Of a stretch of 33,439 nt of DNA, positions 3 to 30,108 are shown one piece after another. The notes beneath the pieces were generated by a model. The model was given only the letters and a program-made list of their open reading frames with translations. It was not told the DNA's origin and searched no databases. A program made the translations under genes and the position numbers. The stretch is taken from positions 1-33,439 of the IMG/VR virus record IMGVR_UViG_3300007735_000639, one strand, 5' to 3'. This DNA comes from a virus. Each line of letters starts with the position of its first letter. The stretch's first letter is position 1.

Positions 3-1631
3 GTCGTCGACGGCGCCGAGCCAGCCGGGATGCTGCTGCGGGCCGCGTGCGAGCGGCATGTGCGCGACCTCAAACGGTCAGCGCAGGGCGGGCCATTCAT
101 CTTCGACCCGCGCGTCGCCGAAAGCGTGTTTCGATTCTTCAGCGCGCTGCCCCACTACAAAGGTGAGTGGGCGAACACGCCGATCGTGCTCGAACCGTTT
201 CAGGCGTTCATCATTGGCGCGCTCTTCGGATGGCTGCATCGCGAGACGGGGCTGCGCCGGTTCCGGCAGGCGTATCTTGAGCAGCCGAGAGGGCAAGGGA
301 AGTCGACGGTCGCGGCTGGCGTGGCGCTGAAACTGGGTTTTTTCGACGGCGAACCTGGGGCCGAGGTCTACTGCGCTGCCACGATGCGCTCGCAAGCTCG
401 GATCACTTGGGACGCGGCGCGCGAGATGGTGCTGCGGTCGTCGCTGAAGCGCCGGATCCGGGCGCTCGTCGGCAATTTGCACGAGCTGTCGACCGCCTCG
501 AAGCTGATGCCGCTCGGCGGCGATACCGACTCCCTTGACGGTCTGCGGCCGCACGGCGTCATCCTCGACGAGATCCACGCGCACAAGTCGGCCGCGATGA
601 TCGACGTGCTGTCGACGGCGACTGGGCCTCGCCGACATCCGCTGATTCTAGAGATCACGACGGCAGGCGTCGGACAGATCGGGCCGTGCTGGGCTCACCA
701 CGACTATACGAGCAAGGTCGTGCGCGGCATCGTCGACGACGATGCCTGGTTCGGCGCAATCATCGGGGCCGACCCCGAGGACGACTGGCGCGACCCGGCT
801 GTTTGGCGCAAGGCTAACCCGAATCTCGGCAACTCGGTGAAATTGGACGACCTCGAACGGAAGTGCAAGCAAGCGACGCACATTCCGACGTTCGAGCCTG
901 AGTTCCGGCGGTTGCATCTCGGGCAATGGGTCCAGCAGAGCGAGAAGTACCTCTCGATGCTGGCATGGGACGCTGACGGCAATGCCGCGCCGATCGACCG
1001 CGCCGCGCTGCGCCGCCAGCCGTGCGTGCTCGGCCTCGACGTCTCGGCCAAACAGGACATCACGGCGATCGTCGCGCTGTTCGCGCGGCCGGATGGAGGG
1101 TTCATCGTGCTGCCGGTGTTCATCGCGCCCGAGGCGATCATCGACCAAACGCGCCGGGCGCTCGTGCCGCTCGATGCGTGGCGGCGGCAAGGCTTCCTAC
1201 AGACGACGCCAGGCGACGTCATCGACCAGACAGCGATCGTGCAGGCCGTGCTCGACCTGTCGAGAGAGTTCCGGGTCCGCGAGGTAGCGTTCGACCCGTG
1301 GAACGCGACGCAGATCGCGAGCGACCTACAGGCGCACGGGCTGGACGTGGTCGAGATCAGGCAAGGTTTCCGCACGCTGTCCGAGCCGACAAAGGATCTG
1401 TCGTCGCTCGTGACGCAGGGCAAGCTGCAGCATGGCGGCGACCCGGTGCTGCGGTGGATGGCCGACAACCTGGTGGTGCGCGAGGACTTCAACGGCAACG
1501 TCGCGCCAGACAAGCGGAACGCGGCCGAGAAGATCGACGGCGTGGTGGCAACGATCATGGCTCTGAGTCGACGCGGGCACCTTCGCGCGCGCGCTGACGG
1601 GCCGCGTACGCGTGGGATTCTGGTGCTATGA
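3..1631 (+). CDS. terL: Terminase large subunit (TerL), 5' end cut by window edge
   Basis: ATP-driven packaging motor and nuclease that cuts concatemeric phage DNA and pumps it into the prohead through the portal. Numbering from the ATG at 30 (533 aa): N-terminal ATPase with a Walker A variant QPRGQGKS at 85-92 and Walker B VILDE at 177-181; a C-terminal RNase H-like nuclease with acidic residues D337 (LGLDVS), D422 (FDPWN) and D503 (KIDGVVA). This is the Terminase_1/COG4626 layout. The frame is open upstream of ATG 30 to the edge and reads VVDGAEPAG, which resembles the conserved stretch before the ACERHxRDL motif in this family, so the true start probably lies outside the window. No small terminase subunit is recognisable in the window. 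The stop overlaps the next start. Confidence 0.95.
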   Translation, partial: VVDGAEPAGMLLRAACERHVRDLKRSAQGGPFIFDPRVAESVFRFFSALPHYKGEWANTPIVLEPFQAFIIGALFGWLHRETGLRRFRQAYLEQPRGQGKSTVAAGVALKLGFFDGEPGAEVYCAATMRSQARITWDAAREMVLRSSLKRRIRALVGNLHELSTASKLMPLGGDTDSLDGLRPHGVILDEIHAHKSAAMIDVLSTATGPRRHPLILEITTAGVGQIGPCWAHHDYTSKVVRGIVDDDAWFGAIIGADPEDDWRDPAVWRKANPNLGNSVKLDDLERKCKQATHIPTFEPEFRRLHLGQWVQQSEKYLSMLAWDADGNAAPIDRAALRRQPCVLGLDVSAKQDITAIVALFARPDGGFIVLPVFIAPEAIIDQTRRALVPLDAWRRQGFLQTTPGDVIDQTAIVQAVLDLSREFRVREVAFDPWNATQIASDLQAHGLDVVEIRQGFRTLSEPTKDLSSLVTQGKLQHGGDPVLRWMADNLVVREDFNGNVAPDKRNAAEKIDGVVATIMALSRRGHLRARADGPRTRGILVL

Positions 1632-1822
1632 GCAGCGACCCGAGAGACGACATGCGGCTGTTGACGGTCGCCGAGGCGGCGCGGCTGGCGCAGGTCAGCC
1701 AGCGCACGATGCAGCGATGGATCGAAAAGGGCGCGGTGCGTGCGGTGCGGCCGACACCGATCGCGCGGAAGTGCCTCATCCCGGCCGAGGACGTTGACCC
1801 AAGGCGCTATCTCAAGGGCTGA
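1628..1822 (+). CDS. Small MerR/excisionase-type helix-turn-helix protein
   Basis: 64 aa. Residues 11-41 (LLTVAEAARLAQVSQRTMQRW then an EKGAVRAVR wing) match the HTH_17 helix-turn-helix found in excisionases and small MerR-like proteins. The C-terminal LIPAEDVDPRRYLKG also fits that family, in which the wing ends with a 'hidden in the helix' motif. It probably binds DNA. The ATG overlaps the TerL stop (ATGA), so it is translationally coupled to terL. With no integrase in the window, an excision role is only one option; a transcription factor or a packaging-associated DNA-binding protein are others. The DNA-binding assignment is firm, the role unknown. Confidence 0.75.
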   Translation: MSSDPRDDMRLLTVAEAARLAQVSQRTMQRWIEKGAVRAVRPTPIARKCLIPAEDVDPRRYLKG

Positions 1823-1877
1823 TCGGCCCGATTCCCTCTAGATTCTGTGCAATTGTGTGCGCGTGGGCGCTCTTTCC

Positions 1878-1908
1878 CTGTTGCATGTGATTATCTTAGT
1901 GATAATCT
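1878..1908 (+). promoter_or_regulatory. Putative promoter with overlapping dyad operator
   Basis: An AT-rich island in GC-rich DNA contains a perfect 7-bp inverted repeat, GATTATC (1889-1895) and GATAATC (1901-1907), with a 5-bp centre TTAGT. A sigma70-like promoter overlaps it: TTGCAT (1881-1886), 16 bp, TAATCT (1903-1908); alternatively CTGTTG (1878-1883), 17 bp, GATAAT (1901-1906). The 19-bp dyad has the size of a dimeric HTH repressor site. It lies about 55 bp upstream of the gene at 1962, which has a purine-rich ribosome binding site (GGGAGAGGGG). The remainder of the 1823-1961 gap shows nothing else. Confidence 0.5.
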
Positions 1909-1961
1909 ACCTACATTGAGCGCGGCAATCACGCCGCCGGGCAGCAGGGAGAGGGGCAACA

Positions 1962-2144
1962 ATGTCGAAAGCAGAAATCGTCAAGCAGCAGTTCGAGGCG
2001 TACATCATCGGCCTTGCGGAGTACTTCAAGGCCGAACCGGCGGCGCGCCACGTAATCCATTTGAGATGGGGACTGATCGAGCGCGAAACTGCGATTCGGA
2101 TCGCCGATTTGGTGCAAGCGAGCCACAGCGAGGTGGCGCGGTGA
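1962..2144 (+). CDS. Hypothetical 60-aa protein
   Basis: 60 aa with no recognised family. It is mostly helical by eye: SKAEIVKQQFEAYIIGLAEYF, then HVIHLRWGLIERETAIRIADLVQASHSEVA. The pattern RETAIRIADLVQASHSEVAR resembles a short helix-turn-helix, but this is not secure. It is the first gene behind the 1878-1908 promoter, with a strong GGAGAGGGG ribosome site at the right spacing. The stop overlaps the GTG of the next gene (GTGA). Confidence 0.65.
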   Translation: MSKAEIVKQQFEAYIIGLAEYFKAEPAARHVIHLRWGLIERETAIRIADLVQASHSEVAR

Positions 2145-2278
2145 TTAACACGGTGAAGATCGGACGGCATGAACTGCGCGCCTTCGACGGGCTGTGGTTC
2201 ATCTGGACGGAAGGCGTCGGCTACTGGGCCTTCCATATGACATACGAGCAAGCGGTCACAACCGCGCAGTCTGTTTAG
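2141..2278 (+). CDS. Hypothetical 45-aa protein
   Basis: Begins at GTG 2141, which overlaps the previous stop as GTGA; an upstream ATG in the same frame at 1847 would run through the promoter and is rejected. 45 aa, rich in aromatics (LWFIWTEGVGYWAFHMTYEQA), without a family I recognise. It looks like a small globular or beta-rich polypeptide and has no membrane segment. It is followed 11 bp later by a rho-independent terminator, so it ends a two-gene unit with 1962-2144. Confidence 0.55.
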   Translation: MINTVKIGRHELRAFDGLWFIWTEGVGYWAFHMTYEQAVTTAQSV

Positions 2279-2289
2279 TAGCACGACAC

Positions 2290-2315
2290 GGCCGGGCCTT
2301 CGGGTCCGGCCTTTT
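2290..2315 (+). terminator. Rho-independent terminator with UUCG tetraloop
   Basis: A 9-bp stem (GGCCGGGCC, 2290-2298, with GGTCCGGCC, 2303-2311; one G-U pair) closes a TTCG loop and is followed directly by TTTT (2312-2315). This is a textbook intrinsic terminator on the + strand, 11 bp after the stop of the 45-aa gene. Confidence 0.85.
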
Positions 2316-2333
2316 ACTGGTGAGAGAGACATC

Positions 2334-2423
2334 ATGGCATCCACGACCGATGAGATCACTGGCGACATTTTGGCTGGCGGCAACACCTATGTAGATATCT
2401 GCTACACCAGCGAGGCAGTGTAG
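2334..2423 (+). CDS. Possible 29-aa peptide
   Basis: ATG 2334 to TAG 2423 encodes 29 aa (MASTTDEITGDILAGGNTYV then nine more). It lies just after the terminator and 3 bp before the next start, so it fills the space between genes as expected for a real small gene. The ribosome site is only weak (GAGAGAG). No family is recognised and it may not be expressed. Confidence 0.35.
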   Translation: MASTTDEITGDILAGGNTYVDICYTSEAV

Positions 2424-2426
2424 ATC

Positions 2427-2576
2427 ATGCGCGACGCTTACCACGACGAACGACGCGGCCGACTGCTAGCCATGCAGCCACGTCGCACACGCCGAGGCCG
2501 CACAGTGGCTGCCGGAGCTGTGCTCATCCTGCTGTCGCAGGTGGTGTATTTCCTCTTTCTGAGGGCTGCGCTATGA
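2427..2576 (+). CDS. Small single-pass membrane protein
   Basis: 49 aa. A basic N-terminal half (residues 9-25, RRGRLLAMQPRRTRRGR) is followed by one hydrophobic segment at about 26-45 (VAAGAVLILLSQVVYFLFL) and a four-residue tail. The arginine-rich half should stay in the cytoplasm. The stop overlaps the next ATG (ATGA). A small one-TM phage protein like this could act in lysis control, superinfection exclusion or something else; the sequence does not decide. Confidence 0.55.
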   Translation: MRDAYHDERRGRLLAMQPRRTRRGRTVAAGAVLILLSQVVYFLFLRAAL

Positions 2577-2764
2577 CAGACAACGACGAACAGAACGACA
2601 CGCGGACGGCGCTCGATCCGAGCAAGCTGGTCGAGGCGCTGCGCGAGCTCTATCACGCGGCGACGCCGCACGCTTATCACGGCACGATCGACCTCAACGC
2701 GTACGTCTACGCCGGGCGCGCGCTGCGCGATGCCGAGGCGGCGCTGAAAGACGGCGCTCGATGA
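2573..2764 (+). CDS. Hypothetical 63-aa protein
   Basis: 63 aa, acidic N-terminus (MTDNDEQNDTRTALD) followed by helices (SKLVEALRELYHAATPHAYHG and AGRALRDAEAALKDGAR). No family recognised. ATGA overlaps at both ends (with the membrane protein upstream and the RHH-like gene downstream) place it firmly in a translationally coupled series. Confidence 0.65.
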   Translation: MTDNDEQNDTRTALDPSKLVEALRELYHAATPHAYHGTIDLNAYVYAGRALRDAEAALKDGAR

Positions 2765-2913
2765 CCTACCTGCTCCGCGACGTCGACGACGATACCTGGG
2801 GACGCGTCCGCGATCGCGCCAGAGTCGACGGCCTGTCGATTCGGGCCGTGATCCTGCTCCTGCTGCACGCCTACGCTTCCGGCCGCATCTCGGTCGGCGC
2901 GCGCCTTCACTAG
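2761..2913 (+). CDS. Ribbon-helix-helix-like small protein
   Basis: 50 aa. The N-terminus TYLLRDVDDDTWGRVRDRA gives a short beta-strand then an alpha-helix, followed by VDGLSIRAVILLLLHAYASGRI as a second helix. This is the pattern of short phage and plasmid ribbon-helix-helix proteins with the 'dxxxWxxvkxrAxxxGxSlravIlxLLxxYaxG' form. Such proteins dimerise and bind operators. The start overlaps the previous stop (ATGA), and the gene closes the small-gene block before the long non-coding stretch. The fold is likely and the target unknown. Confidence 0.6.
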   Translation: MTYLLRDVDDDTWGRVRDRARVDGLSIRAVILLLLHAYASGRISVGARLH

Positions 2914-2917
2914 AACC

Positions 2918-2953
2918 CTCTCGGCCAGCCTCTCGGCCAGCCTATCGGCCATG
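2918..2953. repeat. Three tandem 12-bp direct repeats
   Basis: CTCTCGGCCAGC occurs at 2918-2929 and 2930-2941 exactly, and a third, diverged copy (CTATCGGCCATG) at 2942-2953. The third copy forms the left arm of the hairpin at 2941-2972. The array begins 5 bp after a stop codon, so it is not coding. It could be a protein-binding site or replication slippage product. Confidence 0.75.
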
Positions 2954-2978
2954 TTCACCTGTGGCCGATAGGCGTTTT
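2941..2978 (+). terminator. Possible terminator hairpin after the small-gene block
   Basis: A perfect 11-bp inverted repeat, CCTATCGGCCA (2941-2951) and TGGCCGATAGG (2962-2972), encloses a 10-nt loop and is followed by CG and TTTT (2975-2978). It sits 27 bp after the last small gene. The 2-nt gap before the T run and the short run make it a less ideal terminator than 2290-2315. Confidence 0.5.
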
Positions 2979-3093
2979 CGGGCCAGTTTCCCCTGCTTTT
3001 GCCCATTTTGGGGCCATTTTCGGGCTATTTCGAGGCCGTTTTTAGGCCGTTTCTGGGCTGTTCTCGACCCTTATTGAGCCTGATTCGAGCCAG
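2975..3093. other. Helically phased T-tracts (predicted curved DNA)
   Basis: T-runs start at 2975, 2987, 2997, 3006, 3017, 3028, 3039, 3050, 3061 and about 3071 and 3084. From 3006 to 3061 the spacing is exactly 11 bp. The unit is a degenerate 11-mer close to TTTTCGGGCCG (for example TTTTGGGGCCA 3006-3016, TTTTCGGGCTA 3017-3027, TTTTTAGGCCG 3039-3049). A-tracts repeated at the helical period bend DNA in one direction, so intrinsic curvature is expected. No coding frame explains it. Confidence 0.6.
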
Positions 3094-3315
3094 GATCAAT
3101 GCCTGATCCGACCGGAAAACGCGCCAGATCTGACCCTCTTTAGTGCGTTTCGGGCCAGTCGATGGCCGCAAACGGCCTCGCGCCGGAACTGCGGACGGCC
3201 TAGATGCGGCGATCGGCGCGCGGACGCGTGGTTGTGTCTATCGGATGACAGATCGCGCCACATAACGCCGCAGCGACCGCGACCCGATTGCTGGCGGCGA
3301 GCATCTGCTACATAG

Positions 3316-3403
3316 TCGGACCAAGCCCCTGTCTCTGTCTGCGGGTCCGATCTGGAGCTGGCTCTCTCCCGGCGTCCAGATCGGCCCGCGTTTTTACTCG
3401 GGC
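3316..3403 (+). promoter_or_regulatory. Mutually exclusive leader hairpins before the portal gene
   Basis: Hairpin A pairs TCGGACC (3316-3322) with GGTCCGA (3344-3350). Hairpin B pairs CCGATCTGGA (3347-3356) with TCCAGATCGG (3375-3384). They share 3347-3350, so only one can form at a time. A third weak pairing, GCCCG (3384-3388) with CGGGC (3399-3403), spans a T5 run at 3391-3395 and overlaps the end of B. The arrangement resembles an attenuator or a translational switch, 10 bp before the portal ATG, which lacks a good ribosome site. Confidence 0.4.
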
Positions 3404-3412
3404 GCATCCCTG

Positions 3413-4600
3413 ATGCCGACCATCATCGAGCGAATCTCTCGCGTGTTCGGCTTGGCGCCGACCAGCGTGCGCGGCAACGCGCTCCCGGCGCTCCTGGGCG
3501 CGTCCTACGGGGCCAGCGCGGCAACCGAGGACGGCGCGCTCCGTATCGCGGCGGTGTATGCCTGCGTGCGCGTCATCGCCGAGACCGTCGCATCGATTCC
3601 CCTGCTCACCTATCGCCGCTCTGCCGACGGAGGCAAGTCGCGCGCCGAGGACGATCCGCTTTACGCGCTGCTGCGCGTGTCGCCAAATCCTGAACAGACA
3701 AGCCTAGAGTGGCGCGAGCAGATGCTCACGCACCTGTTGCTGCGCGGCAACGCCTACAGCCGGATCGTGCGTGACCGGCGCGGCGTGGTAATTGAACTGG
3801 TGCCGCTGATCCCCGATGAGGTCGACGTCAAGACGAACGCTGGCGGCGCGATTGTCGGCTACGCGTATCGGCATCGCGAGACGATCACGCCGTGGGACAT
3901 GCTGCACATACGCGGCCTGTCGAGCGACGGCGTGCTCGGGCGCTCGGTGCTGCGCGACGCCAACGACACCTTCGCTGCTGCCAAGTCCGCGCAGGAGTAC
4001 GGACGCCGGGCGTTCGAGAACGACGCGACGCCTGGCATGGTGCTGAAACACCCAGAAACGCTCGACGAGGAAGCCGCAAAGCGCCTGCGCGAGTCGTGGG
4101 AGCAGATGTTCGCCGGGCCGCGCAACGCGGGTCGCGTCGCCGTGCTTGAAGAGGGCATGAGCGTCGAGAAGATCCAGCTCTCGGCCGAGGATCTCCAGTT
4201 CATCGAGACGCGTCGACTGCAGCGGTCAGAGATCGCCGCGATCTTCCGCGTGCCTCCGCACATGGTCGGCGATCTTGAGCGCGCGACGTTCAGCAACATC
4301 GAGCAGCAATCGATCGACTTTGTGATGCACTGCATTAGGCCGTGGTGCGTGCGGATCGAGCAGGCGCTCTACAAGAAGCTGCTCACGCCAGCGCAGAAGC
4401 AGGAACTGTTCTTTGAGTTCCTGCTCGACGGCCTCGTGCGCGGCGACCTGCAGAGCCGATACACGGCCTACCAGATCGGGCGTCAGGCCGGGTTTCTGTC
4501 GGTCAACGATATCCGCAGCCTCGAAAACCTGAACCCGATCGCGGGCGGCGACCGCTACCTTGAACCGCTCAACATGCAAGTCGTCGGGAGCTCCCAGTAA
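3413..4600 (+). CDS. Portal protein, HK97 family
   Basis: 395 aa, usual length for HK97-family portals (Phage_portal). Twelve copies form the ring at the unique capsid vertex through which DNA enters and leaves and on which the head-tail connector assembles. Diagnostic stretches: AAVYACVRVIAETVASIPL (about 46-64), YRHRETITPWDMLHIRGLSSDG (about 151-172, split here by its motif only), and the wing-to-stem region ETRRLQRSEIAAIFRVPPHMVG (about 264-285). The start codon lies in a region with no clear Shine-Dalgarno sequence. It begins the late structural operon and overlaps the next gene by one base (TAATG). Confidence 0.95.
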   Translation: MPTIIERISRVFGLAPTSVRGNALPALLGASYGASAATEDGALRIAAVYACVRVIAETVASIPLLTYRRSADGGKSRAEDDPLYALLRVSPNPEQTSLEWREQMLTHLLLRGNAYSRIVRDRRGVVIELVPLIPDEVDVKTNAGGAIVGYAYRHRETITPWDMLHIRGLSSDGVLGRSVLRDANDTFAAAKSAQEYGRRAFENDATPGMVLKHPETLDEEAAKRLRESWEQMFAGPRNAGRVAVLEEGMSVEKIQLSAEDLQFIETRRLQRSEIAAIFRVPPHMVGDLERATFSNIEQQSIDFVMHCIRPWCVRIEQALYKKLLTPAQKQELFFEFLLDGLVRGDLQSRYTAYQIGRQAGFLSVNDIRSLENLNPIAGGDRYLEPLNMQVVGSSQ

Positions 4601-5010
4601 TGGCGGCGAACCCGAAACGCTCGAACACGGCGGCGAGCGCGGCTGCCGACGCTGTGAGCGCACTGCTGACCAACGGCTATCTGCGCGTCTACGACGGTAC
4701 GCAGCCAGCGACGGCCGACACGGCGATCACGACGCAGGTACTCCTGGCCGAGCTGCGATTCAACGCTTCGGCCGCATTCGGCGCGGCATCTAACGGCGTC
4801 GCGACAGCAAACGCGATCACGTCTGACAGTTCGGCGAACGCCACCGGCACGGCGTCGTGGTTTCGGGCGCTAAAGTCTGACGGCACGACGGCCGTCTACG
4901 ACGGATCGGTCGGCACGAGCGCGGCCGATCTGGTGCTGAACAGCGTGGCAATCGCGCTCGGCGCGATCGTGGCCGTCACAGCGTTTACCTACACCGAGAA
5001 CAAGGGGTAA
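4600..5010 (+). CDS. Beta-rich phage structural protein, function unknown
   Basis: 136 aa. After an alanine-rich start it contains NGYLRVYDGTQPATADTAI then a LLAELRFNASAAF strand, TGTASWFRALKSDGTTAVYDG, and an ending FTYTENKG. I recognise this as a recurrent uncharacterised protein in phage structural modules, with alternating strands suggestive of a beta-sandwich. No membrane segment or signal peptide. It is coupled to the portal by TAATG, so it should be made with the head proteins. Candidate roles are head decoration or fibre attachment; neither is shown by the sequence. Confidence 0.75.
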   Translation: MAANPKRSNTAASAAADAVSALLTNGYLRVYDGTQPATADTAITTQVLLAELRFNASAAFGAASNGVATANAITSDSSANATGTASWFRALKSDGTTAVYDGSVGTSAADLVLNSVAIALGAIVAVTAFTYTENKG

Positions 5011-6063: not shown

Positions 6064-7847
6064 CGCTCCGCAAGAATGTCGCCGGGCAGAAGGTGCCGTT
6101 TGTGCTCGTCAATGCGAGCACGGGCGCGGCGCTTACGGGCGCGACGGTTACGGCCAAGATCACGCTCGACGGTGCGGCGCAGGCGACGGCCAGTGGCACG
6201 GTCGCAGAGCTGGCGGGCGGGCAATATGTCTGGTCGCCAGCGCAGGCTGACACCAACGCCAACAGCCTCGGCGTACTGTTCACGGCAACCAGCGCGATCC
6301 CGGTCGGATTCACGATCTTTCCAACCTCGGCCGATCCGACCGACAGCGTGCGGCTTGGGCTGACGGCGCTGCCGAATGCGACGGCTGGAAGCACTGGCGG
6401 CGTCGGCACGGTCGACGCGAACAACGCGATCAAGGTTCAGAGCGGCACCGGCACCGGGCAGATCAGCATTACGAGCGGCGTGGTCAGCGCGAACACGACG
6501 CAACTGTCCGGTACCGCGCAGACAGCGCGCGACCTCGGCGCGCAGCTCGACGCGACGGTGAGCAGCCGTCTGGCCTCGGCGTCGATCTCGCTCACTGGCG
6601 GCGCGGTGACGGTCGGCACCAACAACGATAAGAGCGGCTACAGCCTGTCGGCCGCAGGCGTGCAGGCCGTGTGGGATGCGCTTACGTCTGCGCTGACCAC
6701 GGTCGGCAGCATCGGAAAGCTGCTCGTCGACAACATCAACGCGACAATCAGCAGCCGCCTTGCGTCGGCCGGCTACTCGGCTCCGCTCGACGCGGCCGGT
6801 ACGCGCTCGGCGCTCGGACTCGCCTCGGCCAATCTCGACACGCAACTCGACGCGCTGCCGACAGCCGCTGAGAACGCCAGCGCGGTGCGGTCGAACCTGA
6901 CGACAGAACTCGGCCGGATCGATGTAGCGATCAGCACGCGCGGCACCGGAACGGCGCTCGACGCGGCTGGTGTGCGGTCGGCGATAGGTCTGGCTGCGGC
7001 CAATCTCGACACGCAGATCGACGCGCTTCCGACAGCCGCAGAAAACGCAGCAGCGGTGCGGTCGAACCTGACCACCGAGCTGGGGCGAATCGACGCGGCC
7101 ACCTCAACGCGGCTGGCGTCGACCAGCTACACTGCGCCGCTCGATGCGTCTGGCACGCGTGCGGCTGTCGGCCTCGCCTCGGCCAACCTTGACACGCAGC
7201 TTGCGGATCTACCGACGGCAGGCGAGAACGCGAGCGCGGTCTGGGAAGAGTCGCTTGCGAGCCATACATCGGCAGGCACCTACGGCGGGCGCATCGTGCG
7301 AGCCAGCAGTGCCAGCGTCGAGCTGGCTCTGACGGGCAGTCACCATGCGGCGGCAGACATCCACGAGCTGCAGCCGGGCGTGCTGACGGCTGGCGACTTC
7401 GCGGCCGATGCGATTACGGCCGCAGCTATCGCGGCCGATGTCGGCGCCGAAATCGCGTCGGCCGTGCGGTCGAATCTGGCGACAGAACTCGCGCGCGTCG
7501 ACGTGTCGGTGTCGTCGCGTCTAGCGTCGACCAGCTATACCGCGCCCGACAACGTGTCGATCGCGGCAATCAAGGTCAAAACCGACGCGCTCCCGAGCGA
7601 TCCGGCCGACCAGAGCGCGGTCGAAGCGGCGATCGTCGGCCTGCTGACGACGCAACTGGCAGAGTCCTACGCGGCCGACGGCGTCGCACCGACAGTCGGA
7701 CAGGCGCTGCTCGGCATCCTGCAGCGGCTGACCGAGTTCTCGATCGACGGGACGACGATCACAGTGAAGCGGCTCGACGGCGCGGCAACGGCGTATTCGC
7801 TCACGCTCGACGACGCGACCGCGCCGACGTCGAGCACGAGGTCGTAG
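6060..7847 (+). CDS. Large repetitive fibre-like structural protein
   Basis: 595 aa from GTG 6060, which overlaps the previous stop and sits behind GGAGG (6049-6053); an ATG at 6021 in the same frame encodes an arginine run and is rejected. Residues 1-90 (TLRKNVAGQKVPFVLVNAST onward) form a beta-sandwich-like domain seen in other phage structural proteins. The middle carries near-repeats of 57-61 residues (about 240-385; units contain GLASANLDTQLDALPTAAEN). The end (about 490-595) has a DALPSDPADQSAVEAAIVG stretch and a strand-rich tail. Low cysteine, high Ala/Thr/Ser. It probably is an elongated trimeric fibre or fibre shaft. The unusual place is between portal and protease. Confidence 0.7.
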   Translation: MTLRKNVAGQKVPFVLVNASTGAALTGATVTAKITLDGAAQATASGTVAELAGGQYVWSPAQADTNANSLGVLFTATSAIPVGFTIFPTSADPTDSVRLGLTALPNATAGSTGGVGTVDANNAIKVQSGTGTGQISITSGVVSANTTQLSGTAQTARDLGAQLDATVSSRLASASISLTGGAVTVGTNNDKSGYSLSAAGVQAVWDALTSALTTVGSIGKLLVDNINATISSRLASAGYSAPLDAAGTRSALGLASANLDTQLDALPTAAENASAVRSNLTTELGRIDVAISTRGTGTALDAAGVRSAIGLAAANLDTQIDALPTAAENAAAVRSNLTTELGRIDAATSTRLASTSYTAPLDASGTRAAVGLASANLDTQLADLPTAGENASAVWEESLASHTSAGTYGGRIVRASSASVELALTGSHHAAADIHELQPGVLTAGDFAADAITAAAIAADVGAEIASAVRSNLATELARVDVSVSSRLASTSYTAPDNVSIAAIKVKTDALPSDPADQSAVEAAIVGLLTTQLAESYAADGVAPTVGQALLGILQRLTEFSIDGTTITVKRLDGAATAYSLTLDDATAPTSSTRS

Positions 7848-8465: not shown

Positions 8466-9536
8466 ATGCACGCGATCATCGTCGACATTGACGGCACGCT
8501 CACACGGGGCGGCAACGACCCCAACGAGCCGGTCATCGCGAAGGTGCGCGCCGTCGCGGCCGACGCCGACATCATCATCGTTTCGGCACGTCCTGCGTCG
8601 CGCCTGAACGAGACGCGCAAGTGGTTGGACGCGCAGCAAGTTCCGCACGCGCGTCTCTACTTGAACGACTTCTCCGACCAGAGCGGGCCGAATGTCGCAG
8701 AGGCGTTCAAGACCTACAAGTTCGACGAACTAGCGACGGAGCTCGGCGAGGATCTGGAGTATGTCGTCGACAACGATCCAGACATGCGCGAGATCGCGCG
8801 CAAGCGTGGTCTCACGGCGCTGAGTCCAGAGGAGTTTGTCGCGCTCGACGCGCAGGACGGCGAGGATTTGCAGACGCATCCGACGACGCTGCATCGCGCA
8901 AGCACGACGTGCCAGTACAAGGCGCTCGACGATGCGGCCAAAGTCGGACGGTTTTCCGGCTACGGTGCGGTGTTCGGCAATGTCGACGCATACAAGGAGC
9001 GTCTACTGCCTGGTGCGTTCACGGCCACGCTGGCCGATGCGCGTGCGTCTGGACGAATGCCCGCGATGCTCTGGCAGCATGATCCAACGCAGCCGATTGG
9101 CGTCTGGCGCGCGATGCACGAGGACGCGCATGGTCTGTACGTCGAGGGCGAGCTGGCCGACACGCAGCTCGGGCGTGAAGCCTACAGCCTGTTGAAGCTG
9201 GGCGCGCTGTCGGGGCTGTCGATCGGTTTCTCGGTGAAGTCGGATCGATTCGACCAGCGCGACCAGGTGCGCGAGCTGGAGTCGGTGCATCTGTGGGAAG
9301 TCTCACCTGTGACGTTTCCGGCGAACACGGCCGCGCGCGTCGCACAGGTCAAAACCGGGTCGTCGATGACGATCCGCGAGTTCGAGCGATTCCTGCGGGA
9401 GGCGGGATCGTTTTCAGCACAACACGCGAAAGCGATCGCCGCTCGCGGGTATCGCGCGCTTCGGGATGAAGCGACGGCACCTGAGACCGTCGATACCGCA
9501 TGGCTGCAGGACATGGCGCGTCGACTCTCGGTGTAA
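8466..9536 (+). CDS. HAD phosphatase domain fused to HK97 prohead protease
   Basis: 356 aa with two domains in one frame. Residues 1-125 are HAD-like: motif I DIDGT (7-11), motif II IIVSARP (37-43), and the acidic motif VVDNDPDM (100-107), as in polynucleotide 3'-phosphatase-type HADs. Residues about 145-300 are a herpesvirus-fold prohead protease (peptidase U35): FSGYGAVFGNVD (163-174), His205 in LWQHD, Ser252 in GLSIGF, then LWEVSPVTFPAN (276-287). The protease processes the capsid delta domain and portal-linked scaffold. A TTG at residue 135 with a nearby GAGGA could give a stand-alone protease. Its place just before the capsid gene is standard. The HAD fusion is not what I know for this family. 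Confidence 0.85.
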   Translation: MHAIIVDIDGTLTRGGNDPNEPVIAKVRAVAADADIIIVSARPASRLNETRKWLDAQQVPHARLYLNDFSDQSGPNVAEAFKTYKFDELATELGEDLEYVVDNDPDMREIARKRGLTALSPEEFVALDAQDGEDLQTHPTTLHRASTTCQYKALDDAAKVGRFSGYGAVFGNVDAYKERLLPGAFTATLADARASGRMPAMLWQHDPTQPIGVWRAMHEDAHGLYVEGELADTQLGREAYSLLKLGALSGLSIGFSVKSDRFDQRDQVRELESVHLWEVSPVTFPANTAARVAQVKTGSSMTIREFERFLREAGSFSAQHAKAIAARGYRALRDEATAPETVDTAWLQDMARRLSV

Positions 9537-24180: not shown

Positions 24181-24234
24181 TTTCGCTGGCAGTGTTTGTT
24201 CGTTTTCTTTCGCTGGCAATATTTGTTCGTTTTC
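24181..24234. repeat. 27-bp tandem direct repeat in promoter gap
   Basis: Copies at 24181-24207 and 24208-24234 begin TTTCGCTGGCA, end TTTGTTCGTTTTC, and differ at two positions in between. The array abuts the predicted promoter of the HTH gene at 24269, so it may hold two operator copies, possibly for that protein. Confidence 0.8.
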
Positions 24235-24251
24235 TCAACTCGTGTTATATA
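24223..24251 (+). promoter_or_regulatory. Putative sigma70-type promoter of the HTH gene
   Basis: TTGTTC (24223-24228), 17-bp spacer (24229-24245), TATATA (24246-24251). The -35 box lies in the second repeat copy, so a repressor bound there would block polymerase. The start site would be about 24258, leaving a very short leader before ATG 24269, with no clear Shine-Dalgarno sequence. Confidence 0.6.
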
Positions 24252-24268: not shown

Positions 24269-24460
24269 ATGAGGCTGACGATTCGCGCCGGGCTCACCCG
24301 GCTCATGGCTCGCGACGGACTTTCGCAGGCGGCACTGGCGAAGCGGTGGTGCGTGACGCAACCGACCGTGTCGCGCTGGTTGCGCGGCACCCGTCGCGTG
24401 CGGCATCGCGCCGCACGGCTGGCGCTGCTGGAACTCGGAGTGGATCCACGATGTTTGTAG
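24269..24460 (+). CDS. Cro/C1-type helix-turn-helix regulator
   Basis: 63 aa. GLSQAALAKRWCVTQPTVSR followed by WLRGTRRVRHR is a clear HTH_3/Cro-like DNA-binding motif (about 17-40). The protein is little more than one DNA-binding domain. It lies just after a promoter and tandem repeat, so it probably autoregulates or controls the replication genes downstream. No partner repressor or integrase is seen, so lysogeny is unproven. It overlaps the next gene start. Confidence 0.75.
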   Translation: MRLTIRAGLTRLMARDGLSQAALAKRWCVTQPTVSRWLRGTRRVRHRAARLALLELGVDPRCL

Positions 24461-26216: not shown

Positions 26217-27032
26217 ATGTACAACAAGCTGTTCACGCGCATCCTCTACTCGTCGATCTGGACTGAGGCGTACGCGACACGGCTCGTGTGGTTGGCGATG
26301 CTGGCCGCGATGGACGAAGACGGGATCGTTCACGCGGCCACGCCGCGCAACCTGGCCGCGCTCGCTGGCGTCACCGTCGAAGAGGCACAGCAAGCCGTGG
26401 CGACGCTGTCCGCACCTGATCCGGAAAGCTCAAATCCCGACCGCGAGGGGCGGCGCATCGAGCGATTCCCTGGAGGCTGGGTGATCACCAACGCGCGGAT
26501 CTATCGCGCGCTCGCCAAGCGCGACGACATGCGACACAAGACAGCGGAGCGCGTCAGAAGACACCGGGAACGATTATCAAGTAACGGGTTGGTAACACCA
26601 TCAGAAGCAGAAGCAAAAGCAAAGAAAAGATCTCGATCATCGCGTGGCGATGATCACGATCAAACGCTGAAGCAACCAACCAAAGCGCCTGAGCCATATC
26701 GAACGACCTTCGACGCGTTCTGGTCGCGGTATCCGCGCAAAGTCGCGAAGGCGGCGGCGTGGAAATTCTGGGCGGCACTAAAACCAGATTCGGCGCTCGT
26801 CGAGACGATCAGCGCGGCGATCGAAGCACAACGCCGGTCGGAGGCGTGGACGCGTGACGACGGGCGGTTTGTGCCGCACGCGGCGACCTGGCTGCGCGGC
26901 CGACGCTGGGAGGACGTTGTCGAGTCACCGGCACCGGCCGCAACCGGCACCGAGGACGCGCGGCGGCGCACGGTCGACGTCGTCGAGTCGCGGCTGGCGC
27001 TACTACGCGGCGCATCTGTGGGTGATCGATGA
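26217..27032 (+). CDS. DnaD-like replication initiator / helicase loader
   Basis: 271 aa. N-terminus (YNKLFTRILYSSIWTEAYAT, then RLVWLAMLAAMDEDGIV, LAALAGVTVEEAQQAVATLS) is a winged-helix module seen in phage replisome organisers. A basic, low-complexity linker (about 105-160, SEAEAKAKKRSRSSRGD) follows. The C-terminus FDAFWSRYPRKVAKAAAWKF and WTRDDGRFVPHAATWLRGR is the recurrent end of such proteins. It likely binds the origin and loads DnaB, whose gene overlaps it. A probable origin lies in the linker codons. Confidence 0.75.
   Translation: MYNKLFTRILYSSIWTEAYATRLVWLAMLAAMDEDGIVHAATPRNLAALAGVTVEEAQQAVATLSAPDPESSNPDREGRRIERFPGGWVITNARIYRALAKRDDMRHKTAERVRRHRERLSSNGLVTPSEAEAKAKKRSRSSRGDDHDQTLKQPTKAPEPYRTTFDAFWSRYPRKVAKAAAWKFWAALKPDSALVETISAAIEAQRRSEAWTRDDGRFVPHAATWLRGRRWEDVVESPAPAATGTEDARRRTVDVVESRLALLRGASVGDR
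26603..26655. other. Origin-like segment inside the initiator gene
   Basis: In the linker, a purine-rich, AT-richer tract (26603-26630, AGAAGC repeats as AGAAGC AGAAGC AAAAGC AAAGAAAAG) is followed by a perfect 9-bp inverted repeat, GATCATCGC (26635-26643) and GCGATGATC (26647-26655), around GTG. In lambda the origin lies inside gene O. The AT-rich character stands out from the GC-rich phage. Function inferred. Confidence 0.4.
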
Positions 27033-28384
27033 GTCGGGGCAATGGCGACGCGTTCGACGATCTCGACGCGCTCAACGTGACGCGAAACGCCGCGATCGAG
27101 GCCGAGCGCGCGGTGCTCGGGGCGCTGCTGGTCGCACCGGATCGGCTCGACGATGCCGTCGAGGCCGTCGGCGAGGCCGATTTCTTCCGGACGGCGCACC
27201 GGCTGATCTGGGCGGCGATCCGTAAAGTCGCCGCCAATGGGTCAGCGGTCGACCTGTTGACGGTCAAGGCGGCGCTCGGGCCAGCGATCGAGGACGTCGG
27301 AGGTCCGGCCTACCTGGCGGCGCTCACCGACGGCGTGCCGCGCTCGGGCAACGTCGCACACTACGCGCGGCTGGTGCGCGAGTACGCTGTGCGTCGCACG
27401 GTCGAGCAGATCGGCCGCGACTTGGTCGACGCTGCCGTCGGAGGCGAGGAGACCGGCGCCGACTTGCTTGCGCGTGGCGAGACGGCGCTGCTTGGCCTGC
27501 GGACGACGCAGCCTGGGACGGCTGTCGAGGGTCCGATCGACCGCACCTCGGCGCTGCTCTCGACGCTGGAGGCCGCATCGGAAGGTCGACGGCGCGGCAC
27601 AACGACTGGATTGCGCGAGCTCGACGCGCTCACGTATGGGTTCAGGCCGGGACAATTGATCGTCTTAGGCGCACGCCCAGCGCAGGGGAAGACGGCGCTG
27701 GCGCTCTCGATGGCGCTCGGGGCCGGGACGCACGGGCCGGTGCTGTTTTGTTCGCTGGAGATGTCGACGGAGCAGATCAACCTACGCGAGATCAGCGTGC
27801 GGTCAGGGATCAGTCACACGGCGCTCGACGCTGGGCGGATTCCAGACAGTCAGCGGCGGCGGTTCTCGGACGCGCTGCAGGCGATGCACGACGGCCAGGT
27901 GCATGTGCTCGACCGGCCGGGCGCAACGTTGAGCCAAATACGCGGGGCGGCGCGACGTCTGAAGTCGGCGGCAAAGATACCGCTGGCGTTGATCGTCGTC
28001 GACTATCTACAACTCATGCGACCTGAGCGCGGCGTGCGAAGCGAGAACCGGACGATTGAGGTCGCGCAGTTTTCGGGCGGGCTAAAACTCTTGGCGCGCG
28101 AACTTGAGGTGCCGGTGATTGCGCTGTCGCAGCTCTCGCGCGAGTCGGAGCGGCGCGCCGACAAGCGGCCGATGCTCGCCGACCTGCGCGAGTCTGGCGC
28201 GCTTGAACAGGACGCCGACGCGGTGCTGCTGCTACACCGGCCGGGCGTCTATGACGCAAGCGTGCCAGACACGCGCGCGGAACTCATCATCGGTAAGCAG
28301 CGCAACGGGCCGACCGGAATCGTGCATCTCGCGTTCGATCCAGAAACGATGCGGTTTTTGGACAGCGTCGGTGTCTACGCATGA
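27029..28384 (+). CDS. DnaB-like replicative helicase
   Basis: 451 aa, family length. N-terminal helical domain (about 17-120; NAAIEAERAVLGALLVAPDR) and a C-terminal RecA-like motor: Walker A GARPAQGKT (214-222), FCSLEMSTEQ (240-249), Walker B LIVVDYLQLM, and a final QRNGPTGIVHLAFDPETMRF motif. A hexameric 5'-3' helicase that unwinds the replication fork. The ATGA overlap with the initiator shows coupled synthesis. Confidence 0.95.
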   Translation: MSRGNGDAFDDLDALNVTRNAAIEAERAVLGALLVAPDRLDDAVEAVGEADFFRTAHRLIWAAIRKVAANGSAVDLLTVKAALGPAIEDVGGPAYLAALTDGVPRSGNVAHYARLVREYAVRRTVEQIGRDLVDAAVGGEETGADLLARGETALLGLRTTQPGTAVEGPIDRTSALLSTLEAASEGRRRGTTTGLRELDALTYGFRPGQLIVLGARPAQGKTALALSMALGAGTHGPVLFCSLEMSTEQINLREISVRSGISHTALDAGRIPDSQRRRFSDALQAMHDGQVHVLDRPGATLSQIRGAARRLKSAAKIPLALIVVDYLQLMRPERGVRSENRTIEVAQFSGGLKLLARELEVPVIALSQLSRESERRADKRPMLADLRESGALEQDADAVLLLHRPGVYDASVPDTRAELIIGKQRNGPTGIVHLAFDPETMRFLDSVGVYA

Positions 28385-29340: not shown

Positions 29341-29753
29341 CACCTGAACAGGCGGCACGACGCTATCAGCGGCACGACAAACCGGCGCAGCGGCAACGGC
29401 GCAAGGCCGGGCTGTGCGTCTCGTGCCACGCGCCGGTCGACGAGATCAACCCGAGCACGGGCCAACGCTACTGGCGCTGCGCGACGCATCGGAAGATGGC
29501 GAGCGCGGCGTCAGGTCGCTACGCGCGGCCGATGCGGGCGGCGTGGCGCGCGGCTGGGCTGTGCCGGGATTGCGGGCAGGAACCGGGGCGCAATCGTCAG
29601 ACGGGGCAAGTATACGTGCGGTGCATGGCGTGCCGCATGTCCGGAGCCGAGCACCAGGTGCGACAACGGGCTGCACGCAAGCAAGAACGACGAAACGCGG
29701 CGATCGCGCAGTGGGAGCAGAGTCGTGAGCAGCGATCGTCCACGTTTCGTTGA
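29337..29753 (+). CDS. Double zinc-ribbon protein
   Basis: 138 aa from ATG 29337 (ATGA overlap with rusA); an upstream ATG at 29238 is inside rusA. Two similar cysteine modules: CVSCHAPVDEINPSTGQRYW then RCATH, and CRDCGQEPGRNRQTGQVYVR then CMACRMS. Both keep the GQxYxRC spacing, so it looks like an internal duplication. The ends are rich in Arg and Lys. It probably binds DNA or RNA. No named family. Confidence 0.65.
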   Translation: MTPEQAARRYQRHDKPAQRQRRKAGLCVSCHAPVDEINPSTGQRYWRCATHRKMASAASGRYARPMRAAWRAAGLCRDCGQEPGRNRQTGQVYVRCMACRMSGAEHQVRQRAARKQERRNAAIAQWEQSREQRSSTFR

Positions 29754-29925
29754 GGAAGCGACGCGCTCGTGGTGGCTCGACGAGATGACGCGCGAGGCGT
29801 TCATGCGCGCGGCCGAGCGCGAGGCGTCGACGCGCATGTCGCGCAGCCGCGAGGCGCATCGGCACCAGCCGATCACCGTCGACTACCTGACCGTCAAAGC
29901 ACGGACGGGTGGACGTCGGACGTAA
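29725..29925 (+). CDS. Hypothetical 66-aa protein
   Basis: 66 aa; GTG 29725, 7 bp after GGGAG and overlapping the previous stop. Charged, helical: FVEEATRSWWLDEMTREAFM then RAAEREASTRMSRSREAHRH. No family recognised. It ends the replication cluster before a 183-bp gap. Confidence 0.6.
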   Translation: MSSDRPRFVEEATRSWWLDEMTREAFMRAAEREASTRMSRSREAHRHQPITVDYLTVKARTGGRRT

Positions 29926-30108
29926 CGAACTGAGCCTCGCTGCAGCGGGGGCGCGGCGCATCTCTGTGGGGTAGACAATCCGCCACACAGGCCAGCAGCC
30001 GTGCAGAGGAGCCGGGCGCGTGCATGTTCTGCAGGATGACGGGTTATGAGATGCACGCAGTTCTCGCGGTGGTGGGCTGCGGGGACACATTCAACAGGAG
30101 AGAGAGAC
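29926..30108 (+). other. Intergenic gap before the methyltransferase cluster
   Basis: Carries a 10-bp palindrome CGCTGCAGCG (about 29937-29947) and an imperfect dyad around CTGTGGGG/CCACACAG near 29963-29988, and ends in a strong ribosome site (CAGGAGAGAGAG) for the gene at 30109. No clear -35/-10 pair was found; an ORF starting at 30024 is in a different frame and looks spurious. Confidence 0.4.

Follow-up and report, generated by a model that had tools for sequence, protein, structure and literature searches.

An array of about ten degenerate TTTTcGGGCCg units, predicted to be intrinsically curved, lies at 2975–3093 on the plus strand of the record of an uncultured phage with 65% GC. The array is real, and DNA of this kind, in which each helical turn carries a T-run, is rare. 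We tentatively suggest that it serves the late operon as a curved regulatory site, to which a small phage protein would bind cooperatively, with one unit per turn. The sequence analysed, called the window here, is the whole virus record of 33 439 bases. Both curved DNA and operator arrays in phase with the helix are already established kinds of site.

The T-tract array and its predicted curvature

Runs of three or more T's start at 2975, 2987, 2997, 3006, 3017, 3028, 3039, and 3050, and weaker runs are found further 3′ at 3061 (TTC), 3071 (TTATT), and 3083 (ATT). The unit spacing is exactly 11 bp for five successive steps, from 3006 to 3061, and 9, 10, or 12 bp elsewhere. The six clearest units conform to TTTYnRGGCYR, in which TTT and GGC never vary and are separated by half a turn, and the differences among the units are confined to the other five columns. 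All of the T-tracts and GGC elements are on one strand, in a single orientation. The TTTYnRGGCYR motif is present six times in the array and only once elsewhere in the record, on the minus strand at 4526. The Fourier power of T at about 10.75–11 bp is 6.28 at 2970–3079, while the next-best place in the record reaches 1.46, and the maximum among 60 simulations of the window with a first-order Markov model was 2.80 (mean 1.64). The periodicity of T at about 11 bp in the array is the strongest in the 33-kb record. Furthermore, self-comparison of the gap at a lag of 10/11 gave 34/45, compared with at most 27 in 500 dinucleotide shuffles. These results confirm the original observation of a degenerate repeat with helically spaced T-runs. 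GGCC or GGCT recurs every 11–12 bp from 2923 on, and three tandem 12-bp copies of CCTCTCGGCCAG (2917–2951, plus strand), which have no T-tract, extend the approximately 11–12-bp GGCC spacing of the array. The exact pattern TTTTCGGGCYATTTTCGGGC had no match in viral contigs.

The array had also been described as free of genes, and we found no plausible gene over it. The ORFs there are either antisense or out-of-frame overlaps of the gene at 2761–2913, and a coding explanation was rejected, as there is no plausible frame and the ORFs scanned gave no family matches. A structured RNA was likewise rejected, with no Rfam match and with array RNA that, taken alone, folds like its shuffles (z = +0.29).

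The curvature was calculated with two dinucleotide wedge models. Both place the most strongly curved 105-bp segment of the record at 2956–3070. The predicted bend there is 121–140 degrees, and the end-to-end ratios, 0.70 and 0.76, are the lowest in the record. Among 400 dinucleotide shuffles of the array, only 5 in one model and 1 in the other were equally curved. The A/T-tracts of the array are in phase with the helix, with a period of 10.75–11 bp. Thus, the array DNA should be strongly bent according to these models, which bear out the intrinsic curvature originally proposed, as a prediction that depends on the wedge parameters used.

Genomic setting and candidate binding proteins

The record encodes a large terminase (TerL), portal, head protease, HK97-type major capsid protein, tape measure, and endolysin, together with an exonuclease, replication initiator, DnaB helicase, methyltransferases, and an HNH endonuclease. 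All of the genes identified are on the plus strand. The initiator-like protein is encoded at 26217–27032 and DnaB at 27029–28384, and the HNH gene sits at the end of the record. The terminase frame is already open at the first base, and alignment by eye with a relative (L028) suggests that about the first 17 codons of TerL are missing. Since the 5′ end of TerL seems to be missing and no small terminase (TerS) was found in the record, the record is probably not quite complete. No close match to the array region, and none to the 2761–2913 protein, was found among isolated phages. In the search for a host, a portal scan of genome contigs gave no match, nor did a TerL scan of 398 genomes of one phylum at E ≤ 1e-120, which was run without a positive control.

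Several other features of the record were observed. The N-terminal 120 residues of the head protease gene product (8466–9536) have additional matches to polynucleotide kinase families. A tandem pair of 27-bp T-rich repeats at 24181–24235, just upstream of a Cro-like repressor gene (24269–24460), probably forms the operators of that gene. C-runs on the coding strand of the window show a strong strand asymmetry (CCC 146 vs GGG 491; GCCC 45 vs GGGC 262), and the record of the relative L025 (L403, L404) has CCCC 0 vs GGGG 151 and CACC 18 vs GGTG 358. GATC occurs 300 times in the window, about 2.8 times more frequently than the 107 predicted from base composition.

The array lies in a gap of 499 bp between the 2761–2913 gene and the start of the portal gene at 3413. 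This is the second largest gap in our hand-made gene list, the largest being at 29341–30045. The portal gene (3413–4600, plus strand; PHROG portal E = 2.5e-125) is the first of the capsid and tail operon, and the portal, capsid, and tail genes follow the array, so the array is indeed located just before the late operon, as had been claimed.

The array is flanked by two predicted terminators on the plus strand. The first, after the 2761–2913 gene, is a strong intrinsic terminator at 2940–2978, with a 13-bp stem followed by GTTTTC (fold −25.7 kcal·mol−1, z = −7.1); its hairpin spans 2940–2973, and its T-tract doubles as the first array unit. The second is a strong terminator-like hairpin followed by GTTTTT at 3340–3394 (fold −38.4 kcal·mol−1, z = −6.2), about 20 nt before the portal start. 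A third terminator-like site was noted at 2290–2311. If the hairpins terminate transcription, the portal operon would need both a promoter and a way past the last hairpin. A consensus scan of 1500–4700 found no sigma-70 promoter. The sequence CTTATTGAGCC at the 3′ edge of the array (3070–3102, plus strand), with a −35-like TTGAGC and no good −10, might be a weak promoter, which is speculation from the sequence only.

What protein might bind the array? The best candidate appears to be the 50-residue product of the 2761–2913 gene (plus strand), whose start has an ATGA overlap with an ORF ending at 2764. It is predicted to be a ribbon-helix-helix (RHH) DNA-binding protein of the Arc/CopG/FitA-like type. 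Its Pfam match to FitA-like_RHH (E = 0.026) is below the cut-off, and its PHROG match is to an Arc-like repressor at E = 0.19. The AF2 model (pLDDT 77.8) has two helices, at residues 10–23 and 27–39, and a Foldseek search gave Arc, CopG, VapB12, AtaR, and ParG, led by the first three, all with E ≥ 1. No single match is significant, and the predicted assignment comes from the convergence of weak evidence. Homologues are located at the same place in the relatives L028 (33% identical by alignment) and L321. The second candidate would be the HTH_17 (Xis/MerR-like) protein encoded after TerL at 1628–1822 on the plus strand (Pfam HTH_17 8.7e-10; phrog_66, excisionase and regulator, 3e-7).

Relatives and similar arrays elsewhere

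Relatives were taken from the TerL and portal scans, and the gap between TerL and portal was inspected; L025, L026, L027, and L028, with 63–68% TerL identity, were read directly. No comparable array was found in this gap in relatives at 54–68% identity. In L025, it is absent from the gap, and no comparable periodicity was found in the whole 35.9-kb record. In L026, TerL and portal are almost contiguous, and L028 shows only weak periodicity, in a different gap. The array is also absent from L321 and L322, with 61% portal identity. The closest relative, L002 (75% portal identity), starts 141 bp before its portal gene, and the position of the array is outside its sequence. Strong curvature is not consistently shared by the equivalent gap in relatives. 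A T/A periodicity in L060–L066, L079–L083, and L092 is about 1.7 kb past TerL and resembles coding sequence. A complete lack of conservation of the 11-bp spacing in relatives had been named as counter-evidence, and this is largely what the relatives that could be compared show. On present evidence, the array appears to be lineage-specific, with a proposed role.

The gaps between the RHH gene and portal in L028 (8096–8679) and L321 (379–1094) are conserved at least as well as the adjoining coding DNA and have no Rfam match. Where aligned, they are about 97% identical, with 179/180 in the last 180 bp, and the whole aligned stretch, portal sequence included, is about 95% identical. A weak 10–11-bp repeat is located directly before TATTGACC in both (matched by 1/500 and 4/500 shuffles), and TATTGACC, at the edge of this repeat, is comparable with the possible weak promoter CTTATTGAGCC. 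Since L028 and L321 have the RHH gene without the T-tract array, the RHH site, if bound, differs there.

Other genomes were surveyed with the pattern TTTnnnGGCnn, as three units plus TTT. Viral contigs contain 29 such stretches, and bacterial and archaeal genomes contain at least 119, while a rough estimate of the chance expectation is less than 1 in each set. Control arrays with a 10-bp or 12-bp unit gave 12 and 58 stretches, respectively, in the viral contigs. Outside ORFs of at least 90 residues, the 10-, 11-, and 12-bp units gave 9, 19, and 14; most of the 12-bp matches are coding, and several outside these ORFs are still coding-like by eye. Thus, tandem arrays also occur with other unit lengths, and 10–11 bp looks favored in noncoding DNA. 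The 11-bp arrays are sparse in unrelated phages and bacteria and have mixed contexts, namely, replication genes, promoters, and operon junctions, as judged from crude ORF calls in GC-rich DNA. The viral genes flanking them include primase/helicase, DnaD-like loaders, O-like initiators, and Erf. In L140 and L141, the arrays are directly upstream of good promoters. In L018, a strongly curved array, with its T strand antisense to the flanking genes, is in the gap before the terminase genes.

Possible functions of the array

We suggest that the 11-bp degenerate direct repeat would give the gap before the late operon an intrinsic curvature, and that a small phage-encoded protein might bind it cooperatively, one unit per helical turn. 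Binding on one face of already bent DNA could then control the late operon in cis. Although this is put forward tentatively, a regulatory role in the late operon is the most likely of those considered because of the position of the array, its regulator-like neighbor, the phased repeats on one strand, and the precedent of phage regulators. The periodicity is far above chance, the motif is almost confined to the array, and the two models agree on the curvature. Furthermore, the gap separates a regulator-like gene from the portal operon, and the RHH prediction is accompanied by synteny in L028 and L321, where the conserved RHH–portal gap has a weak repeat. Against this reading, similar arrays in other phages and bacteria have no RHH gene identified nearby, the RHH assignment comes from sub-threshold matches, and L028 and L321 are without the T-tract array. 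The proposal that the site regulates the late operon is based on its position, since no sigma-70-like promoter was found near the array. A previously undescribed late-gene switch, in which the RHH protein would polymerise on the curved array between the two putative intrinsic terminators and thereby govern entry into the operon of capsid and tail genes, is an improbable elaboration.

Cooperative binding of direct repeats spaced by 10–11 bp, with bending of the DNA, is known for Apl of phage 186 and other recombination directionality factors (PMC7498355). The operators of 186 Apl, lambda Xis, and P2 Cox have 5–7 direct repeats one turn apart, and the spacing in the array is likewise 10–11 bp. 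Unlike these excisionase-type operators, the array lies before a late operon in a record with no recombinase match, and its binding is proposed. An excisionase site was rejected, as no tyrosine integrase or serine recombinase was found; searches of this incomplete record for Phage_integrase and Resolvase gave no match, with positive controls.

In plasmid R1, the RHH protein ParR binds the 11-bp direct repeats of the parC site. Our array similarly comprises about ten direct repeats of 11 bp and adjoins a gene whose product is a putative RHH protein, predicted from sub-threshold matches, but the sequence and the setting of the repeats differ. A search with AAA_31, for which 14 controls were positive, found no ParA-type ATPase in the record, while in the StbA/ParM search no positive control gave a match. 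Among the uses of curved DNA originally suggested, a control region before the late operon fits the position, packaging is disfavored, an origin is not supported by position, and partition would be without a ParA-type ATPase.

Because the array is not conserved, two other explanations remain serious rivals of the regulatory site, though each seems unlikely. Replication slippage may have expanded an 11-bp unit beside the T-tract of the terminator, giving a neutral tandem repeat with no function. The absence of the array from relatives agrees with this, as do the TTTnnnGGC arrays with units of 10, 11, and 12 bp, of which the viral contigs have 12, 29, and 58, and the 12-bp repeats at 2917–2951 show the tendency of this region to duplicate. 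However, TTT and GGC are fixed and the phasing is kept despite divergence in five columns, which is suggestive rather than decisive, and most of the 12-bp matches are coding, so that the counts outside ORFs of at least 90 residues are 9, 19, and 14. Alternatively, and with slightly less likelihood, curvature alone may matter, as a bent upstream element that aids RNA polymerase, localises supercoils, or is read by a host architectural protein. The array is the most curved part of the record in both models, and some other 11-bp arrays are directly upstream of good promoters (L141, L140). In E. coli, a periodicity of ApA/TpT near 11 bp is concentrated between genes, and a role in transcription has been proposed for it (PMC516772). 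The 11-bp AA/TT periodicity of bacterial intergenic DNA has been linked to curvature (PMC516772; PMC4132750). The array shares the period, the type of location, and the link to curvature, but the bacterial periodicity is a weak genome-wide statistic, whereas the phage array is single and dense, in DNA with 65% GC. Moreover, pure curvature does not need T-tracts and GGC on a single strand in a single orientation, the consensus scan found no recognisable promoter beside the array, and strong curvature is not consistently kept in the equivalent gap of relatives.

The remaining explanations are less attractive. Iterons of a replication origin, bound by the phage initiator, are improbable. The phage does encode an initiator-like protein (26217–27032) and DnaB (27029–28384), and replication-type genes (primase/helicase, DnaD-like, O-like, Erf) flank 11-bp arrays in other viral contigs, but the array at 2975–3093 is neither inside nor beside the initiator gene. 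Even in a circularised genome, it would be more than 9 kb from that gene, in the late region; an origin is thus unsupported by position, with the replication genes at 25–28 kb. A packaging site, at which the DNA would wrap a small-terminase ring with one HTH per helical turn, is very unlikely. In the model proposed for the pac sites of SPP1 and SF6, AT and GC steps alternate over about 100 bp, with one small-terminase contact per turn (PMC4737164), and the approximately 110 bp of alternating T-tract and GC steps in the array fit this wrapping length. The strongly curved array of L018 also precedes terminase genes. Unlike at pac, no TerS was found beside the array, and the phage looks cos-type, with an HNH gene. 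The position of that gene at the end of the record and the order HNH, gap, TerS-like gene, TerL in L028 suggest that a cos site is near the ends of the record and not between TerL and portal, which disfavors packaging. Back-up terminators behind the main one, formed by GGCC/GGCC mini-hairpins followed by U-tracts, are hardly credible. The array does start at the U-tract of the 2940–2973 terminator, and its T-runs are on the gene strand, but folding of the array RNA is no better than that of shuffles (z = +0.29), and the T strand in L018 is antisense to the flanking genes.

If the array is functional as a regulatory site, it would be a compact control region for late genes that combines curvature with helically phased binding sites. 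Dense 11-bp T/GGC arrays are sparse in unrelated phages and bacteria, and those found there often adjoin replication genes or promoters, so that such arrays are usable in searches for cis-acting sites. In L123, two inverted arrays of 11-bp CATTTACTGGC repeats surround an AT-rich core of about 230 bp (7412–7740). This pair flanks a divergent region and adjoins a TTGACA promoter and a small gene that is RHH-like by eye, with no Pfam match. In many loci from gut Firmicutes (for example, L139, L145, L149, L168, L215, and L222), a recurring 11-bp repeat is found antisense inside a gene for a protein of about 485–498 residues; these are possibly iterons inside a replication initiator gene.
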